Part shown: piece after piece, positions 4,612-44,238 of the stretch
How the letters are laid out: each line of letters opens with the position of its first letter
How positions within the stretch are numbered: position 1 is the first letter of the stretch
IMG/VR virus record: IMGVR_UViG_3300044530_000622
Span: 51,178-115,177 of that record
Source of the DNA: a virus
Strand: one strand, 5' to 3'
Length of the DNA stretch: 64,000 nucleotides
Made by a program: the position numbers and the translations under genes
The notes under the pieces: generated by a model
The model's database searches: none
What the model was told of the DNA's origin: nothing
The model's input: the letters and a program-made list of their open reading frames with translations, nothing else

Positions 4612-5430
4612 ATGAATAAAGAATTTAATAGAATGTTGAAACTTGCTGGTCTTATGACTGAAGGCTTGTATACTAATCAGATGACTTCTGAAGAGCCTGT
4701 AATGGAAGCTCCTATGAAAAAGATGACTAAGGAGAAATTGAAGGCAAAGATTAAGGAGATGATGCTCCCTGAAGAGACTATTGGTCAAGAAGCTTATGCT
4801 GAGATGGGTAGCATGGATGAGTATGATACTCAAGGTCTTACTAATGCAGCTAGTGTTGTTGATCATTATTTAAAGATGGCTTATGATGCTGGATCTATAG
4901 GTTCAGGATTTGATAATAACCTTGGTTACGATATGATGGATCATCTAAAGCAATTCTCTGGTGAGATGGATGGTATGAATGAGGATGCTTCGGATATCTC
5001 TAACTCTGTTTCTAAGTCTTCTGTTGAGGTTTTGGTTGCAGCTGCAAAAAGAATTATTGGTGCATTAAAGGATGGTGGATTTGAGCAGGAGGATATCTAT
5101 GACTATATTATGGATAAGGTTAAGACTTTGTCTGTAGATGAAGCTCTTTTTGAGGCTAAGAAAGAAGAAGAAGAGGTTCCTGAAGAGGTTAATATTGATG
5201 TTGAGGCTCCTGTAGAAGATACTGCTGATACTACTGTTGATATTAATATGGATGGAACTCCTGATCTCGATACTGGTTCACCGGAGTTTAAAAAGGCATT
5301 TACAACTCTGATTGATGCTTACAATGCTGCTAAAGAAATAGGTGATCCTAAATACACTCAAATGCTTGCTAATGCTGTAACTTATTTTAATAAAAATATG
5401 ATACTTAAACCAGGTCAACCACAAGCATAA
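4612..5430 (+). CDS. Acidic virion-associated candidate with FNRMLKLAGL N-terminus (272 aa)
   Basis: The protein is strongly acidic, with a low-complexity linker (KKEEEEVPEEVNID, residues about 183-200). Its N-terminus EFNRMLKLAGLMTEG is close to the C-terminus of the scaffold protein at 42561 (FERMKKLAGL), and LMTEG resembles a T4-type gp21 cleavage site (hydrophobic-x-Glu). These two traits suggest a component of the prohead core or an internal head protein; this is inference. The middle is helical with repeated Met/Asp/Gly (GSMDEYDTQGL). It is transcribed from late box 4587. Confidence 0.6.
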   Translation: MNKEFNRMLKLAGLMTEGLYTNQMTSEEPVMEAPMKKMTKEKLKAKIKEMMLPEETIGQEAYAEMGSMDEYDTQGLTNAASVVDHYLKMAYDAGSIGSGFDNNLGYDMMDHLKQFSGEMDGMNEDASDISNSVSKSSVEVLVAAAKRIIGALKDGGFEQEDIYDYIMDKVKTLSVDEALFEAKKEEEEVPEEVNIDVEAPVEDTADTTVDINMDGTPDLDTGSPEFKKAFTTLIDAYNAAKEIGDPKYTQMLANAVTYFNKNMILKPGQPQA

Positions 5431-30985: not shown

Positions 30986-32002
30986 ATGAGTACCGAGACT
31001 AAATCCTGTTCTTGTGGATGCAATTCTTGCGGAAACAAAGCACCTCTGCTTACGGAAGGGATAATTTTTTCACAACGAATTTCAGAAAACCTTTTATACC
31101 ATATCAATAATGAAAAGCCTTTAACAGAGAATACTTTTAGATATGGGTCAACAGCTTTTTTAGATTTGTGGAGAGAGGCTAGAACTTTATATTCTAGAAA
31201 TATTCTGAGTGTAGGAGATGAAGATGAACACATTCTTCTTGAGTCAAATTTAGGAGAATATGGAATGTTCGAAGGAGATAGAGTTGCTTTAGATTTGCCA
31301 ATGCTTGACGAAGGCACCTTCTACTCTAAAGAGCATATTGCAACTTATGGAGATGATGAAGGTAATATGGCAGATGTTTACAAAAACTACAACGGAAAAG
31401 ACTTCTACGTCAATACTAACGAGTATGATTTTGATGCAACTAACCTACATGACCTTCAAGAAAAACTTAAGGGTTATGGCTTTATCCACCACATTAGCGG
31501 TAGACTAGAGGAAGTAAACCTTAAGGAAGTTAATATCAAGTCAAGTAACGTTAAAGATTTACTAAGAAGACTTTACAACGATTCTAAGCTAGTAAATTTT
31601 TTAGAGTTTAAAGACTTTAGGAATGCTTTAAGATTTATTAAAAATGCATCTTTAGAGGAATGGTATGATTTAATGAATGATGTTAGTACATACGAAACTT
31701 CACTAACTGAAGCTAAATACCAAGGAGAAGAAGTAGCTTTAGGAAAACCTAAGAGAGGTGGAGCTAAAAAGTTCTACGTTTACGTAATGAATCCTAAAAC
31801 TAAGAAAGTACAGAAAGTTTCTTTCGGAGGTACAACAGGGTTAAAAGCAAAAATAAACGATTCAGAAGCCAGAACAAACTTTGCAAAAAGACATAACTGT
31901 GCTGAAAAGAAAGATAAAACAAAACCAGGTTACTGGTCTTGTAGACTACCAAGATATGCTTCTCTATTAGGCTTGAAAGGATCTTATTCAGGATTCTGGT
32001 AA
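30986..32002 (+). CDS. Cysteine-tagged unknown virion candidate (338 aa)
   Basis: It begins with a Cys cluster (SCSCGCNSCGN, residues about 7-17). The C-terminal 90 residues contain KFYVYVMNPKTKKVQKVSFG, then FAKRHNCAEKKDKTKPGYW and SCRLPRYA; the pattern KRHNC...YWSCR is familiar from T4-like phages of aquatic bacteria. A middle part repeats Leu/Asp/Glu helices. It starts 4 bases after a late box and leads a run of coupled small genes (32004-33715). Probably a virion or packaged protein; no enzyme motif is seen. Confidence 0.6.
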   Translation: MSTETKSCSCGCNSCGNKAPLLTEGIIFSQRISENLLYHINNEKPLTENTFRYGSTAFLDLWREARTLYSRNILSVGDEDEHILLESNLGEYGMFEGDRVALDLPMLDEGTFYSKEHIATYGDDEGNMADVYKNYNGKDFYVNTNEYDFDATNLHDLQEKLKGYGFIHHISGRLEEVNLKEVNIKSSNVKDLLRRLYNDSKLVNFLEFKDFRNALRFIKNASLEEWYDLMNDVSTYETSLTEAKYQGEEVALGKPKRGGAKKFYVYVMNPKTKKVQKVSFGGTTGLKAKINDSEARTNFAKRHNCAEKKDKTKPGYWSCRLPRYASLLGLKGSYSGFW

Positions 32003-32003
32003 T

Positions 32004-32450
32004 ATGGAAAACTTAGAGCTACTTATAAGAAAAGTACTAGAAGAGCGCAGTCTTAGAGACTGGGTTAAAGAGAAGTGGGTACGTATAGATTCCGACGGTG
32101 ATATTGCAGGTGCTTGTGGGACTTCAAAAAATAAACAAAGGCCTGATCGATGCTTACCTCAAGCCAAAGCACAGTCACTATCTAAATCTGAAAGAGCAGC
32201 AACTGCACAGAAAAAGAAAAAAACATCTGCACAAGTTGTTGCAAACACTAAAAAAGCAAGAGTTACAGAAATACTACAAATCTTAGAATCAGATTATACA
32301 CCAATAAACAAGGAGTTATGGTCTAGAGCTACAGCAGCTGCTAGAGCTAAATTTGATACATATCCATCAGCTTACGCTAATTTATGGGCCTCTAAATGGT
32401 ATAAAAAAAGAGGCGGAAGTTGGAAAAAAAAGAAAAAGAAAAAGAAATGA
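32004..32450 (+). CDS. DUF5872-like basic protein (148 aa)
   Basis: Residues about 18-75 (RDWVKEKWVRIDSDGDIAGA, then CGTSKNKQRPDRCLPQAKA and SLSKSERAATAQKKKK) match what I know as DUF5872 of T4-like phages, including the CGT and RCLP cysteines. The C-terminus is a poly-Lys tail (11 Lys in the last 13 residues), which would bind DNA. The N-terminus MENLELLIRKVLEERSL is an amphipathic helix with an LEE-type end. A small basic DNA-associated head protein is a plausible reading. ATGA overlap with the next gene. Confidence 0.65.
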   Translation: MENLELLIRKVLEERSLRDWVKEKWVRIDSDGDIAGACGTSKNKQRPDRCLPQAKAQSLSKSERAATAQKKKKTSAQVVANTKKARVTEILQILESDYTPINKELWSRATAAARAKFDTYPSAYANLWASKWYKKRGGSWKKKKKKKK

Positions 32451-32764
32451 ACTTATTAGACATATTAAAAGAAGTTAAAGAATCTTTTCAAGAATTTGCA
32501 GAAACCCGAGGAAAAGGTGCTGCTAAAATTTCTAACTCTGCTCATGAAAAAGGAGGGTTATCTCTTTTAACTTGGCATCACTTTAAAGTTAAATTACCAT
32601 ACTACACAAAAGCAGCTGCAGGTAAATTAGATATGGAAGCAACTAAAAAAGAGTTTGACGAAACATATAAAAAAATCTCTTTAGATATGACTCAAATTGA
32701 GTTTCAAAGAGAAATGGGACGTTTAGAAGTTTTAGGTGAACTTATTATTAGAAATAAAAAATGA
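32447..32764 (+). CDS. Small basic protein with NLLDI N-terminal tag (105 aa)
   Basis: The start is ATG 32447 (MNLLDILKEVKE), overlapping the previous stop as ATGA; an ATG 27 bases upstream lies inside the Lys tail of the neighbour and is rejected. The body contains GKGAAKISNSAHEKGGLSLL and TWHHFKVKLPYYTKAAAGKL, a pattern recalled from other T4-like phages (unknown function). The first ten residues are nearly the same as those of the next two genes. Confidence 0.65.
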   Translation: MNLLDILKEVKESFQEFAETRGKGAAKISNSAHEKGGLSLLTWHHFKVKLPYYTKAAAGKLDMEATKKEFDETYKKISLDMTQIEFQREMGRLEVLGELIIRNKK

Positions 32765-33213
32765 TAAACTTATTAGATATAATAAAAGAAATAGGTGATG
32801 CAAGTTCACAACCGTATAAATTTGAATTTTACGGAAGTCCTTATGATGAAGAAAGATACTATGGTTTCGAAACATCCCATTACCCATACTCAGTACATAT
32901 TACCAATTATGAAGATAATGAAATAGAAATTTCATTTTTTGTACCTAATGAAGAAGATCCTGACCAAGAACGTTACGATATAGAAACTAATAGAGGTGAT
33001 TTATTTAAAATTATGGCAACTGTAATTGCTATAGTAAAACAAGATTTAAAAACACACCCAGATGTTGATACATTAGTATTTACTCCTGTTAAAAAAGAAG
33101 GGGCAGTTGATAATAGTTCTAGAGCAAATTTATATTTACGTTATGTTAAGCATAGTTATCCTGGTGCTAAAGTTGAAACTAATGGAGATGAAATAATAGT
33201 TAAAATTAAATAA
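32761..33213 (+). CDS. Acidic protein with NLLDI N-terminal tag (150 aa)
   Basis: Starts MINLLDIIKEIGD, joined to the previous gene by ATGA. The body is beta-rich and acidic (YKFEFYGSPYDEERYYGFET, VHITNYEDNEIEISF, DTLVFTPVKKEG). The change from a conserved-looking tag to an unrelated body fits a detachable targeting peptide. No family is recognised. Confidence 0.6.
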   Translation: MINLLDIIKEIGDASSQPYKFEFYGSPYDEERYYGFETSHYPYSVHITNYEDNEIEISFFVPNEEDPDQERYDIETNRGDLFKIMATVIAIVKQDLKTHPDVDTLVFTPVKKEGAVDNSSRANLYLRYVKHSYPGAKVETNGDEIIVKIK

Positions 33214-33220
33214 TTACATA

Positions 33221-33265
33221 ATGACCCCATACACAGACATAGAAGTTACAGACAAATACATCTAA
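33221..33265 (+). pseudogene. Remnant of a paralogue of the gene at 34157
   Basis: A 14-codon frame reads MTPYTDIEVTDKYI and then stops at TAA 33263. It is close to residues 3-16 of the protein at 34157 (KPYIDLEVTNEYTI). This looks like the leftover start of a duplicated gene. Confidence 0.4.
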
Positions 33266-33280
33266 CGTGAATAAAAGAAA

Positions 33281-33715
33281 ATGATAAACTTATTAGACAT
33301 ATTAAGTGAAGCAGAGATAGCAAAATGCCCTGCACCTACTCAAAATATTGAACTTAACCTTGAAAATAGGCAGAAGGCAATTAATGAGTATGGATACGGA
33401 CCATTAAATCCTAATGAACCTAATAAGAAGTTTTGGCAAGCTAAAGTTGATATGTGGAAGCTTGATTCAGCAGGAGAAGCTAAAAAGTCACTCTGCGGTA
33501 ATTGTGCAGCATTTGATATAACAAAAAAGACTCTAGACTGTATTGCAAAAGGAATAGGTGACGATGAAGGTTCTGAAGATCCTTTTGATGTTATTGAAGC
33601 TGGTGATTTAGGTTACTGTAGGTTCTTAAAGTTCAAATGTGCAGCTGCTAGAACTTGTGATGCTTGGGTTGTTGGTGGGCCAATAACAGACGAAAAGAAT
33701 GATAAGCAAGCTTAA
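33281..33715 (+). CDS. Cysteine-rich conserved phage protein with NLLDI tag (144 aa)
   Basis: After the tag MINLLDILSEAEIA comes a body with CPAPTQNIELN, YGYGPLNPNEPNKKFW, CGNCAAFDITKK, LGYCRFLKFKCAAARTCDAW and GGPITD. The same order of motifs occurs, from memory, in unknown proteins of T4-like cyanophages and pelagiphages. Eight cysteines in CxxC-like spacing suggest a metal or disulfide-bound fold. The tag replaces the shorter N-terminus I recall for this family. It overlaps the next gene by 17 bases. Confidence 0.65.
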   Translation: MINLLDILSEAEIAKCPAPTQNIELNLENRQKAINEYGYGPLNPNEPNKKFWQAKVDMWKLDSAGEAKKSLCGNCAAFDITKKTLDCIAKGIGDDEGSEDPFDVIEAGDLGYCRFLKFKCAAARTCDAWVVGGPITDEKNDKQA

Positions 33716-39685: not shown

Positions 39686-40828
39686 ATGAAAAGCCTACAA
39701 AATCGATACAATCTTATTAAAGAAGGTAAAGGCAATAAAGAAATCTTCTTAAAAGAAGTTAGAGCTGAATTCCCTCAGTATATTACCAATGTTCAAACGT
39801 TTGATCAAGTTATTCACTCTCTTGCCGAGAAAGGAATTATCAACGAAGCTATGGTATTAGTATCTGCTAACAGACCTGAAACTCCAAATTGGTTTAAAAT
39901 ATTTCAAGAGAATACCGAAACTGTAAAAGCAGACTTAAAAGATACTGATAAATCAGTAACCGAGAAAGAGACTGCTGGATACAACTACGAAGATAAGAAG
40001 AACAACAACAACATTTCAACTCAAGAAATCCTTAACGGATACTATGCTGAGATGAAAGATCCTAAGAATGCTGATAAAACAGAGGATGAAATCAAAGCAG
40101 TTGTATTTAAGAACTTAGAAAAAGATCCTTTGTTCTATATTAAGAATGCAGCATTCGGAGTTAAAGGTATTGGATACACTCAAGATGCTCCTGGTTTAGG
40201 ACCAACAAAAGAAGTAACAGGTAAATATAAATCTTCAGGAATGGAACCCGTTAACCTAAACGAAGCTAAGAAAAGAGCTATTCAAAAAGAAATCGACCAA
40301 ATTGAAAAAATGGGCGAAGTAGCTGCTTGGGAAAATAGGATTATGAAAACTCAAGAGAAGATTGATGAGTTGGCTAAAAAAATGACTGTAGCAGAAGGCG
40401 ATGATGTTAAAGAATACATTAACGAAAAAGCAGTTAAAGACACACAGAGAGATATTAAGCTACTAGAAAAGAAAAAAGCTCTATACGAAAAGCAGAAAAC
40501 TAAAGCAGCTAAGAAAGTAAACAATAAATCAATGATGGAAGATACGGTTCTCGAAAATAGTCCTGTATTAGAAGTAGATGCTACTGGTATGCCAACCACT
40601 GCAATGATGTTACAGATGGCCGATAACAATCCAAAGAAGTTTAAAGAGTATGTTAAACAAATGGATGCTGATCCTGCTTTTAAAACTCAGTTTATGAAGA
40701 AGCTAAGCCCTGCTGAAAAAGAAGAGCTTACTAAGAAGATAGAAGCACACTCAAAACCTAAGACAGAATCTTGGTCTGGAATGGTTAGAGAGTTGATTAA
40801 CAGAAAGAATTTAAAAGTAGGCAAATGA
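39686..40828 (+). CDS. Large charged helical protein in head module (380 aa)
   Basis: The N-terminal block FLKEVRAEFPQYITNVQTFD ... SLAEKGIINEA (residues about 22-55) looks conserved; the centre is a coiled coil (EIDQIEKMGEVAAWENRIMK, DTQRDIKLLEKKKALYEKQK) and the end is Lys-rich. It is probably part of the prohead core, or an internal protein, given its place just before the protease and the scaffold. It overlaps the protease gene by 4 bases (ATGA), which makes joint translation likely. Confidence 0.6.
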   Translation: MKSLQNRYNLIKEGKGNKEIFLKEVRAEFPQYITNVQTFDQVIHSLAEKGIINEAMVLVSANRPETPNWFKIFQENTETVKADLKDTDKSVTEKETAGYNYEDKKNNNNISTQEILNGYYAEMKDPKNADKTEDEIKAVVFKNLEKDPLFYIKNAAFGVKGIGYTQDAPGLGPTKEVTGKYKSSGMEPVNLNEAKKRAIQKEIDQIEKMGEVAAWENRIMKTQEKIDELAKKMTVAEGDDVKEYINEKAVKDTQRDIKLLEKKKALYEKQKTKAAKKVNNKSMMEDTVLENSPVLEVDATGMPTTAMMLQMADNNPKKFKEYVKQMDADPAFKTQFMKKLSPAEKEELTKKIEAHSKPKTESWSGMVRELINRKNLKVGK

Positions 40829-41427
40829 GTAAGAACTTACTTATTGAAACTATATCTTTTCAACCCCGTGCTTTGAAGTTATCTGAAGCGAAGGGAAGTT
40901 CTGGTCTTCCATTAGTAGAAGGTCCTTTGGCGACTGCTGAAATCAAAAACGGCAATGGTAGATACTACAGTAAAAAGATTTGGGAAAGAGAAATTGATAA
41001 GTACATGGACTCTGTTAGACACAATAGAGCAGTTGGTGAGTTAGATCACCCTGAATCTACTGTTATTAACCTTAAAAATGTATGTCATAACATCAAAGAC
41101 ATTTGGTGGGACGGTAATAACATTATGGGTAAGATTGAAATCCTACCAACTCCTTCTGGAAATATACTACAAGCTCTAATGAACTCAGGCATCACTGTTG
41201 GTGTATCATCTAGAGGAATGGGATCAGTAAAACAAATGGGGGAAACACTAGAAGTTCAAGAAGATTTCGAATTACTATGCTGGGATTTTGTATCTACTCC
41301 ATCAAATCCAGGTTCTTGGATGCACCCATTACATGAGGGTCTATCTAAGACCGTAAGTCAGTTCAGTAAAGCTAATGAGATTATAAGAGAGATCTTATGT
41401 GCTCATGGCAACTGTCCGATATTTTAA
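40825..41427 (+). CDS. 21: Prohead core protease gp21
   Basis: The S80 family signature is present: PLATAEIKNGNGRYYSKKIW (residues about 35-53), GELDHPE (71-77; catalytic His75), VGVSSRGMG (125-133; catalytic Ser128 or 129) and LLCWDFVSTPSNPGSW (150-165). Length (200) is near T4 gp21 (212). It cleaves scaffold, capsid and internal proteins after hydrophobic-x-Glu during head maturation. Candidate sites exist in the capsid protein (VIE, residues 58-60) and in several N-terminal tags in this window. A terminator follows. Confidence 0.9.
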   Translation: MSKNLLIETISFQPRALKLSEAKGSSGLPLVEGPLATAEIKNGNGRYYSKKIWEREIDKYMDSVRHNRAVGELDHPESTVINLKNVCHNIKDIWWDGNNIMGKIEILPTPSGNILQALMNSGITVGVSSRGMGSVKQMGETLEVQEDFELLCWDFVSTPSNPGSWMHPLHEGLSKTVSQFSKANEIIREILCAHGNCPIF

Positions 41428-41613: not shown

Positions 41614-42561
41614 ATGACAAACAGAGAATTGTTAAAAGAAGCTATTGCTGATGCAAAAGCTGTAAAGGAAGTCGCTATCACTAATGCAAAAGCTGCATTA
41701 GAAGAGGCTTTCACACCACATTTGAAATCGATGTTCGAAAAGAAAATGATGGACATGGAAGAAGACGAAATCATCACTGAATCTTTAGACACCACCGACG
41801 CTGAAATTGAAGAGCTTTTAAAAGAGCTTGAAGAAGGCGAAGATCTTATCAATGACGCTGACACTGCTTCAACTGCTCATGATCACATGAAAGAAGAAGA
41901 AGAAAGCGAAAAAGAAGAAGGTAAAGAAGATGAAGACGATGTTGAAATCGATCTTGAAGAAATGACTGAAGAAGACTTAAAGAAATTTATTGAATCTGTG
42001 GTAGATGAAATGATCGAAGCTGGTGAATTAGAGGCTGGTCACGAAGGAATGGAAGATGAAGCTGGTGCTGAAGTAGAGGAGCCTGAAGAGGGCGCTGAAA
42101 AAGAAGTATCTGATGAAGAAGAAATTGCTGAAGTGTCTCACGAAGAAGATCCAATGAAAGAAGCTAAAAAAGACCATCAAGAGAAGGAAACTGAAAAGAT
42201 GAAAGCTATGGAGTCTGAATTAACTGAAGCTATCGAAACTATTAACACATTGAAGTCAGAATTACACGAAATTAACTTGTTGAATTCTAAACTTCTTTAC
42301 ACCAACAAAATTTTCAAGGCTAAAAACCTTACTGAATCACAAAAAGTTAAAGTATTAACTGCTTTTGACAAAGCTGAGACAGTAAAAGAAGTTAAGTTGG
42401 TATTCGAAACTCTACAAGAAGGCTTAGAAAGAGTCGCTAAGAAAGAGTTGGTAAGAGAAAGCAAAGGATTTGCTTCTAAATCAATCGGTACTTCACCAAA
42501 ACAGCCTGTGGTAGAAGTTAATCCGACATTCGAAAGAATGAAAAAACTTGCAGGCTTATAA
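41614..42561 (+). CDS. 22: Prohead scaffold protein gp22
   Basis: A strongly acidic, helical protein of 315 residues (T4 gp22 is 269). It starts with TNRELLKEAIADAKAVKEVA and has long Glu/Asp runs (EEESEKEEGKEDEDDVEIDL, about residues 92-111), then a coiled coil (about 195-235, MESELTEAIETINTLKSEL) and ends NPTFERMKKLAGL. gp22 forms the inner core on which the capsid assembles and is degraded by gp21. Position directly before the major capsid gene confirms the call. The C-terminal motif recurs at the N-terminus of the protein at 4612. Confidence 0.85.
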   Translation: MTNRELLKEAIADAKAVKEVAITNAKAALEEAFTPHLKSMFEKKMMDMEEDEIITESLDTTDAEIEELLKELEEGEDLINDADTASTAHDHMKEEEESEKEEGKEDEDDVEIDLEEMTEEDLKKFIESVVDEMIEAGELEAGHEGMEDEAGAEVEEPEEGAEKEVSDEEEIAEVSHEEDPMKEAKKDHQEKETEKMKAMESELTEAIETINTLKSELHEINLLNSKLLYTNKIFKAKNLTESQKVKVLTAFDKAETVKEVKLVFETLQEGLERVAKKELVRESKGFASKSIGTSPKQPVVEVNPTFERMKKLAGL

Positions 42562-42591: not shown

Positions 42592-44238
42592 ATGTCTAAC
42601 GTACAATCATTACTCGAATCTGCTAACCCCTGGCAGAGTTTGCAATCTGACGCTGCCAGATTGTCAAAAAAGTGGGGAGCTACAGGTCTTTTAGAAGGCT
42701 TTAGCCACGAAACTGAAAAAAATAACATGTCAATGATCCTTGAGAATCAAGCCAAGCAATTGGTTATTGAGCAATCTCAAACTGGAACAGGTGCTAGCTT
42801 CACAGCCGGTACTGGTGAACAGTGGGCTGGAATCGCTTTACCTTTAGTGCGTAAGGTGTTCGGTCAGATCGCTGCTAAAGAATTTGTTTCAGTTCAACCT
42901 ATGAACTTACCTTCAGGTCTAGTATTCTTCTTGGATTTCCAATACGGAACTAACAAGAATCCTTTTACCTCTGGCGACTCTACGTATGGTGCATCTTCTG
43001 CTAACTTCGGTAACACCTCAACTGGTGGTTTATACGGAGCTGGTCGTTTCACCTACTCTACTAACCAATTCTCTGCTTCTGGAGTTGCTGTAGTACAAGC
43101 TACTACTTTCTCTACTGCATCTTTCGCAGATGTTAACTTTAACTCAGATTTCTCAGCTTCAGCTGCTGCTGGTCAGATTAAGAAATTAACTGTTGCTACT
43201 TCATCAATCTCTGCTGATATCGATATCTTAGGTGTAAGAGGCTTTCTTATCACTTCTGGTTCTATCACATCTGCTAGAAACTTAAATGAATTTACTTACT
43301 TCTCTTCTCCTAACGTAGTATTCTTCGTAACTGCTTCAACTGCTGAAATTCCAACTTCAAGTAGCTTTGTAGTTGAGTACAACAAGTTAACTAAAGACAA
43401 TGCAAGAGGTGATTTCGAAGCTGGTGCTTCTTATGCAGTTCCTAACTCTGAGTCTCCTACTGAAATCGTTATTCCACAGATCAACGTTCAAATGAGATCT
43501 GAAGCCATCGTTGCTAAAACTAAGAAGTTGAAAGCACAGTGGACTCCTGAATTCGCTCAAGATTTGAACGCTTACCATTCTTTGGATGCTGAAGCTGAAT
43601 TGACTGCTGTAATGTCTGAGTACATTTCTTTGGAAATTGACTTGGAAATCTTGGATATGTTGATCGAATCAGCTGCTGCTGGTACTGAGTACTGGTCTGC
43701 TGTTTCTAACGAATTCATCAACGCTTCTAACACTGCCTTCACTGGCTTGTCAGTAGCTGCAGGTGGATACTACAACACTCAAGGTCAGTGGTTCCAAACT
43801 TTGGGAACTAAGATGCAGAAATTGTCTAACATCATTCACCAAAGAACTTTGCGTGGTGGTGCTAACTTCTGCGTTGTATCTCCAACAGTTGCTACTATCT
43901 TGGAAAGTATCCCAGGCTTTGCTTCTACTTCAAACGGTGACGTTTCTGTAGCTAGCTACGCTTTCGGTGTACAGAAGATGGGTCAAATCAACAACAGATA
44001 TACCATCTACAAGAACCCTTACATGAAGGAAAACACAATCTTGATGGGCTTCAAAGGTAGCCAATTCTTGGAAACTGGTGCAGTATTTGCTCCTTACATT
44101 CCATTAATCATGACTCCTTTGGTGTACGATCCTGATACCTTCGTACCAAGAAAAGGTTTATTGACTAGATATGCTAAGAAAATGGTTCGTCCTGAATTCT
44201 ACGGTAAGATCTACGTTAGTGGTTTGAACACTTTGTAA
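42592..44238 (+). CDS. 23: Major capsid protein gp23
   Basis: The 548-residue protein (T4 gp23 is 521) has the gp23 blocks QIAAKEFVSVQPMNLPSGLV (residues about 93-112), KLKAQWTPEFAQDLNAYHSL (about 305-324), LEILDMLIESA and VYDPDTFVPRKGLLTRYAKK (about 508-527). The first 60 residues form the propeptide; VIE at 58-60, just before QSQTGTG, is the best gp21 cleavage site by comparison with T4 (LTE before Ala66). Its codons are more C/G-rich at third positions than neighbours, as expected for a very highly expressed gene. A terminator follows. Confidence 0.95.
   Translation: MSNVQSLLESANPWQSLQSDAARLSKKWGATGLLEGFSHETEKNNMSMILENQAKQLVIEQSQTGTGASFTAGTGEQWAGIALPLVRKVFGQIAAKEFVSVQPMNLPSGLVFFLDFQYGTNKNPFTSGDSTYGASSANFGNTSTGGLYGAGRFTYSTNQFSASGVAVVQATTFSTASFADVNFNSDFSASAAAGQIKKLTVATSSISADIDILGVRGFLITSGSITSARNLNEFTYFSSPNVVFFVTASTAEIPTSSSFVVEYNKLTKDNARGDFEAGASYAVPNSESPTEIVIPQINVQMRSEAIVAKTKKLKAQWTPEFAQDLNAYHSLDAEAELTAVMSEYISLEIDLEILDMLIESAAAGTEYWSAVSNEFINASNTAFTGLSVAAGGYYNTQGQWFQTLGTKMQKLSNIIHQRTLRGGANFCVVSPTVATILESIPGFASTSNGDVSVASYAFGVQKMGQINNRYTIYKNPYMKENTILMGFKGSQFLETGAVFAPYIPLIMTPLVYDPDTFVPRKGLLTRYAKKMVRPEFYGKIYVSGLNTL

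Follow-up and report, generated by a model that had tools for sequence, protein, structure and literature searches.

We identified three adjacent genes, W1, W2 and W3, that begin with a common N-terminal tag, M(I)NLLDI(L/I)xE, on otherwise unrelated proteins, and we consider it highly probable that this tag is a T4-type capsid-targeting sequence (CTS) with its own consensus and a far wider use than in T4. The genes lie in a stretch of 64,000 nucleotides (the window) that corresponds to positions 51178-115177 of a 115-kb (115,177-bp) virus record. The source virus is an aquatic T4-like myovirus and a distant relative of Flavobacterium Immutovirus, with which its terminase shares ~70% nucleotide identity. 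We infer that the tagged proteins are docked, cut and packaged during head assembly. The tag, as a short amphipathic helix, would dock its protein in the prohead core through hydrophobic residues, and a gp21-type protease would cut after the hydrophobic-x-Glu at residue 10 (residue 9 in W1). The mature body would then stay in the head beside the DNA, and such cargo could be delivered to the host at infection; ejection and a host-directed function of W1-W3 are the most speculative part of the proposal. The tag is also modular, in that phages fuse it to new bodies or exchange it for other types. The relevant features of the window are listed in Table 1.

Table 1. Tagged genes and head genes of the window (window coordinates)
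Feature	Position	Strand	Description
272-aa protein, type D tag	4612..5430	+	Tag MNKEFNRMLKLAGLMTE; motif common to other ORF N-termini and the scaffold C-terminus
Upstream gene	32004..32450	+	Start differs: MENLELLIRKVLEE; L253 homolog begins MIKLLDILNE
W1, 105 aa, all-helical, type A tag	32447..32764	+	ORF; start MNLLDILKEVK
W1 tag MNLLDILKE	32447..32473	+	Predicted cleavage after LKE
W2, 150 aa, alpha/beta, type A tag	32761..33213	+	ORF; start MINLLDIIKEIG (MINLLDIIKEI)
W2 tag MINLLDIIKE	32761..32790	+	Conserved in six homologs
W3, 144 aa, Cys-rich, type A tag	33281..33715	+	Start MINLLDILSEAE (MINLLDILSEA); 408 IMG/VR relatives
W3 tag MINLLDILSE	33281..33310	+	Body-anchored homologs
gp21-type prohead protease	40825..41427	+	phrog_207 head maturation protease, E=1e-58
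Putative gp22-like scaffold	41614..42561	+	Acidic; between protease and capsid genes; C-terminus ERMKKLAGL
Scaffold C-terminal motif ERMKKLAGL	42532..42558	+	Equals type D N-terminal tag motif
Major capsid protein	42592..44238	+	phrog_138, E=6.5e-69

Direct reading of the window at 32447, 32761 and 33281 confirmed the original prediction that three neighbouring genes carry a common N-terminal tag, and the tags end, as claimed, in hydrophobic-x-Glu (LKE, IKE and LSE). Since the Ile is missing from the W1 tag, the Glu of W1 is residue 9 and not residue 10. The near-identity of the tag DNA also held, as AACTTATTAGAYATAWTAA matched exactly three times, all at the starts of W1-W3 (chance expectation with up to 3 mismatches, 0.45 hits), and no copy of the tag DNA was found elsewhere in the 115,177-bp record. 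Synonymous codons were identical between the tag pairs at 7/7, 6/7 and 5/6 positions, with a chance of full identity of 0.003-0.009 per pair. Because this agreement is above the codon-usage expectation, the three tags probably share a recent DNA ancestry. The bodies were unrelated, again as predicted: they gave no mutual BLASTP match even at E=10, and the predicted folds of W1 and W2 differ. In the AF2 models the W1 body had a pLDDT of 94-99 (79 at the last residues) and the first 10 residues 59, while the W2 body was mostly at 76-89 and residues 1-15 were below 50. The tag was modeled in both proteins as a low-confidence helix apart from the body.

The best PDB matches of the W2 model in Foldseek were GNAT acetyltransferases (E 1e-3 to 1e-2, at a low TM of about 0.4), which gives only a hint of a GNAT-like fold. 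Family, PDB and fold searches returned no function for W1 or W3; none of the three proteins had a PHROGs match, and we do not assign them to the T4 IPI, IPII, IPIII or Alt families. Numerous viral contigs encode homologs of W1 with a matching tag architecture, as does Flavobacterium Immutovirus (start MRLLELLREAK), whose host is Flavobacterium sp. LMO8. The Immutovirus homolog (QQO92344.1; L133:13236-13550) is labeled tRNA(Ile2) agmatinyltransferase in GenBank; nothing we found supports this label, which looks like a misannotation. W3 relatives carry the annotation high-potential iron-sulfur protein, and a relative of the W3 body in Actinomycetia phage DSL-LC01 lies within a larger protein that has no tag. 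The two genes upstream of W1 (32004-32450 and 30986-32002) start differently in the window, and their homologs in L253, L241 and G002 bear tags of the same kind as W1-W3, hereafter type A.

We assessed conservation of the tag in homologs that were chosen by body and not by tag. In the W3 family, tag residues 4, 7, 8 and 10 hardly varied while residues 2, 3, 5, 6, 9 and 11 did. Among 21 homologs of W1, the sole invariant tag residues were the Leu and Glu at the positions corresponding to 8 and 10 of the T4 CTS, and in six homologs of W2 residues M1, I2, L4, E10, I11 and G12 were invariant. The Glu of the hydrophobic-x-Glu at residues 8-10 was invariant in the alignments of all three families (W1 itself has it at 9). 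Body-anchored homologs of W1 and W3 had Leu or Phe at residue 4 and Ile, Leu or Phe at residue 7, an observation on conservation and not on function. In T4, Asp at residue 10 prevents cleavage but leaves targeting intact. T4 genetics assigned residues 4 and 7, which are aromatic in T4, chiefly to targeting and residues 8 and 10 to processing (PMC9026906); the invariant tag columns of the W1 family are these two processing positions.

The sequence MIKLLDILSEA aligned without gaps with MKTYQEFIAEA of T4 IPII/IPIII and with MAKINELLRES of gp24, from which gp21 removes the first 10 residues (PMC9958956). The original prediction had named T4 IPI-III and Alt as the parallels of the tag. This held for IPII and IPIII. 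IPI has no Glu10 (MKTFKEFTST), and the cuts in Alt lie at ITE-6 and in its C-terminal part (PMC5694885), so that the nearest counterparts of the tag are IPII, IPIII and gp24. The CTS of IPII/IPIII and type A both occupy ten N-terminal residues on unrelated bodies in genomes with a gp21-type protease, and they share an acidic residue 6, hydrophobic residues 4, 7 and 8, and Glu 10. They differ in that type A has the consensus M-I-(K/N)-L-L-(D/N)-I-L-x-E and is found on dozens of body families, as against a few internal proteins in T4. The gp24 propeptide (MAKINELLRE) matches the pattern and is removed after residue 10, but gp24 is a shell vertex protein and not cargo. Alt, an ADP-ribosyltransferase that is packaged in the head and injected, resembles the tagged relatives in its N-terminal prohead-protease site and in that some of their bodies are ADP-ribosyltransferase-like; it differs in where it is cut, and the tagged ADP-ribosyltransferases are candidates rather than established Alt homologs. 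The giant phages SPN3US and phiKZ, whose head proteins are ejected, also have N-terminal propeptides that are removed after a Glu, as exemplified by the identical N-termini of SPN3US gp53 and gp54 (PMC5694885), but their rule is A-x-E or S-x-E and the propeptides often exceed 100 residues.

We also applied the loose motif M-x(1-3)-phi-x2-phi-phi-x-E, which was drawn up with the aquatic tags in mind. It matched 5 of 69 T4 ORFs, among them IPII, IPIII, gp24 and Alt; since the T4 sequences had already been seen when the motif was written, this is a consistency check and not a blind test. Matches numbered 13 in G002 against 1.8 in shuffled sequences and 10 in G004 against 2.0, while in G001, a near-identical longer relative, 6 matches against 2.6 (sd 1.7) were not clearly above chance. 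A hydrophobic-x-Glu at residues 8-13 was weakly enriched in four complete or long relatives (16-21% versus 13-14% internally) and reached 44% versus 14% in the head-region segment of Immutovirus. As the general enrichment is weak, we left it out as evidence.

The window also encodes head genes, and we propose its gp21-type protease as the candidate enzyme that cuts the tags. The adjoining gene is assigned as a probable gp22-like scaffold from gene order and from resemblance among these phages, relatives being found at the equivalent place in Immutovirus and G002. Alignment by eye placed a hydrophobic-x-Glu site of the major capsid protein, LVIE at residues 57-60, opposite FLTE-65 of T4 gp23. 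This site and those similarly aligned in the capsid proteins of relatives (IVSE in Immutovirus, LISE in Mel-JY01) resemble the end of the W3 tag, ILSE.

IMG/VR was scanned at the codon level for MI[K/N]LLDIL with the next residues free (Glu unspecified), and three related patterns were run over the collected loci; ORFs were counted if they had at least 60 aa or ran off the contig. This identified at least 142 tagged ORFs in at least 37 body clusters (BLASTP with the tag removed). The number of clusters gives the better gauge, since part of the 142 are W1 or W3 homologs that were fetched by body. The figure of 37 is approximate, as distant homologs may have been separated and single linkage may have joined multi-domain bodies. 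Among the matches listed, residue 10 was Glu in 123/142 tagged ORFs versus 1/19 short chance ORFs, and 32 of the 37 clusters had a member with Glu10. The tagged bodies included a Zeta-toxin-like kinase fused to a HAD phosphatase, a thioesterase, a NUMOD4-HNH protein, leucine-rich repeats, DUF5824 and, in L214, an ADP-ribosyltransferase (PF18760, under its curated cut-off); by eye only, further bodies resemble ADP-ribosyltransferases, protein kinases and metalloproteases. The gp21 family was present in 16 of 17 long tagged contigs; it was also present in 3 of 7 contigs with only chance matches, which counts against the association. Most of the computationally testable predictions for a CTS held, those of dozens of bodies, a conserved Glu10 and a gp21-type protease among them, and they support the earlier suggestion of a portable head-targeting peptide. 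No description of the tag was found in the literature, which was searched in open-licence papers only, so that its absence there is weak evidence.

Two longer proteins of ~540-560 aa (L305:9591-11282 and L132:11876-13486) combine a W2-like domain with HExxH-like stretches (HEMIHH, HEIEH), and hydrophobic-x-Glu stretches sit between their parts. These proteins could be cargo polyproteins that are cut by the protease.

Other tags appear in these phages. Four neighbouring genes of G001 (L102, 20-24 kb) start with MDNFDLKKYLVEN on differing bodies; this is type C (MDNFDLKKYLVENK). Tags were also found to be swapped: in L150 and L241 the W3 body is preceded by type C, and a Kyanovirus has MKTFAELQEGVYDPNIFKAIF where IMG/VR relatives show MIKLFDILNEGVYDPGIFKAIF. 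Type D (RMQKLAGIITE, in its fuller form EFxRMQKLAGIITE) was found near 26 N-termini versus 4 mid-protein places. Its motif recurs at the scaffold C-termini of the window (ERMKKLAGL), Immutovirus (SRWQKLAGIIK), Mel-JY01 (ERMKKLAGIVK) and G002 (TRMQQLAGIITK), and a 429-aa protein of L118 starts with type A and ends in the scaffold motif. Relatives with the type D motif also lie in L133, L135, L116 and L118. Type D would copy the C-terminus of the prohead scaffold, so that its cargo would be brought in through imitation of scaffold contacts. We tentatively raise the possibility, without giving it even odds, that types A (MIKLLDILxE), C and D and the cyanophage start MK-x-F-x2-F-L-x-E are interchangeable head-loading labels, with type D acting through scaffold mimicry.

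We then compared the loose motif with virion proteomes of cyanophages, S-SCSM1 being the first tried and S-CREM2, published with coordinates (PMC10665884), the second, with the motif unchanged from the T4 check. In S-SCSM1 there was no overall enrichment (1/48 detected versus 4/143 undetected proteins, p=0.77), and ORF30 (MKTFKQFMSES) was absent from the proteins detected by mass spectrometry (MS), while the MS-detected NMNAT starts with MKSFLQFLKEA. Six NMNAT relatives start alike (MKSFFQFLSEA etc.; MKSL, MKNF and MRSF occur). In S-CREM2, the motif was present in 5/26 MS-detected proteins that are neither structural nor lysis proteins versus 2/133 undetected ones (p=0.0014) (PMC10665884), among them a SAM hydrolase (MKDFDSFLEE), an APH/ChoK kinase (MKRFDAFLTE) and a cytidylyltransferase (MKNFSSFLTE). 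The motif is borne by just a part of the unknown proteins that were detected, which counts against the CTS reading. The virion-detected Cas9-like nuclease of S-CREM2 (L328:7704-10313, reverse strand) shows a stretch similar to a CTS, LRFASFMAEA, at residues 17-26. These cyanophage virion enzymes (NMNAT/cytidylyltransferase, APH/ChoK kinase, SAM hydrolase) resemble the tagged proteins in belonging to T4-like aquatic phages and in their CTS-like starts; they differ in the tag, MK-x-F-x2-F-L-x-E, which the available parts of the virion papers do not mention. The authors of both papers allow for carry-over of enzymes during purification (for S-CREM2, PMC10665884).

The proteomes bear on the alternative that survives best, namely that the tag docks proteins to the head shell, neck or baseplate as permanent structural parts and not as cargo passed into the host. 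In its favour, W1 and W3 occur widely and sit beside the terminase gene, in the late structural region, and several of the tagged bodies show no sign of being enzymes. We nevertheless regard this as unlikely, since many tagged bodies are enzyme-like (kinase, phosphatase, ADP-ribosyltransferase, thioesterase, HNH) and since, in S-CREM2, the motif was found in 0/26 structural or lysis proteins as against the 5/26 other detected proteins. That the amphipathic helix targets a host membrane or host factor rather than the prohead is considerably less probable; a short hydrophobic helix could do so, but this would leave unexplained the conserved hydrophobic-x-Glu, the match to the T4 propeptides and the S-CREM2 virion data.

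We give hardly any credence to the tag being a DNA or RNA feature with no protein role, such as a duplicated translation-initiation leader or a recombination seam. The near-identical tag DNA in the window, with its codon identity above expectation, and the gene overlap at ATGA would fit such a feature, but across contigs the codons differ while the residues persist, Glu10 is conserved though it lies 27 nt inside the gene, and the fixed and variable positions obey helix and cleavage rules. Equally slight is the chance that W1-W3 are diverged tandem-duplicate paralogs that retain the N-terminus alone, as their adjacency and tag DNA might suggest, since the bodies have no similarity, W1 and W2 differ in fold, and each body belongs to a separate family in which the tag has changed independently, the type C tag on the W3 body included. 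A DNA-only repeat, paralogy and chance resemblance were each considered and rejected.

The reading of the tag as a capsid-targeting sequence has consequences for how phage cargo is found. Proteins that are borne in the head and enter the host are known for few phages, and purified virions were needed to find them. Because the tag closely matches the head-loading label of T4, the sequence by itself could suffice to predict which cargo a virus injects. Such prediction would be extended to uncultured phages by a short N-terminal rule, one that in a cyanophage also picks out virion enzymes detected by MS. It also offers an explanation for the enzymes that recur in virion preparations of cyanophages; whether these belong to the virion was left open by the authors (PMC10665884). 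The ADP-ribosyltransferase-like, kinase, phosphatase, hydrolase and nuclease bodies are candidate first-minute effectors or counter-defence proteins. If the several labels are indeed interchangeable, the effectors that many uncultured phages inject could be listed from sequence.
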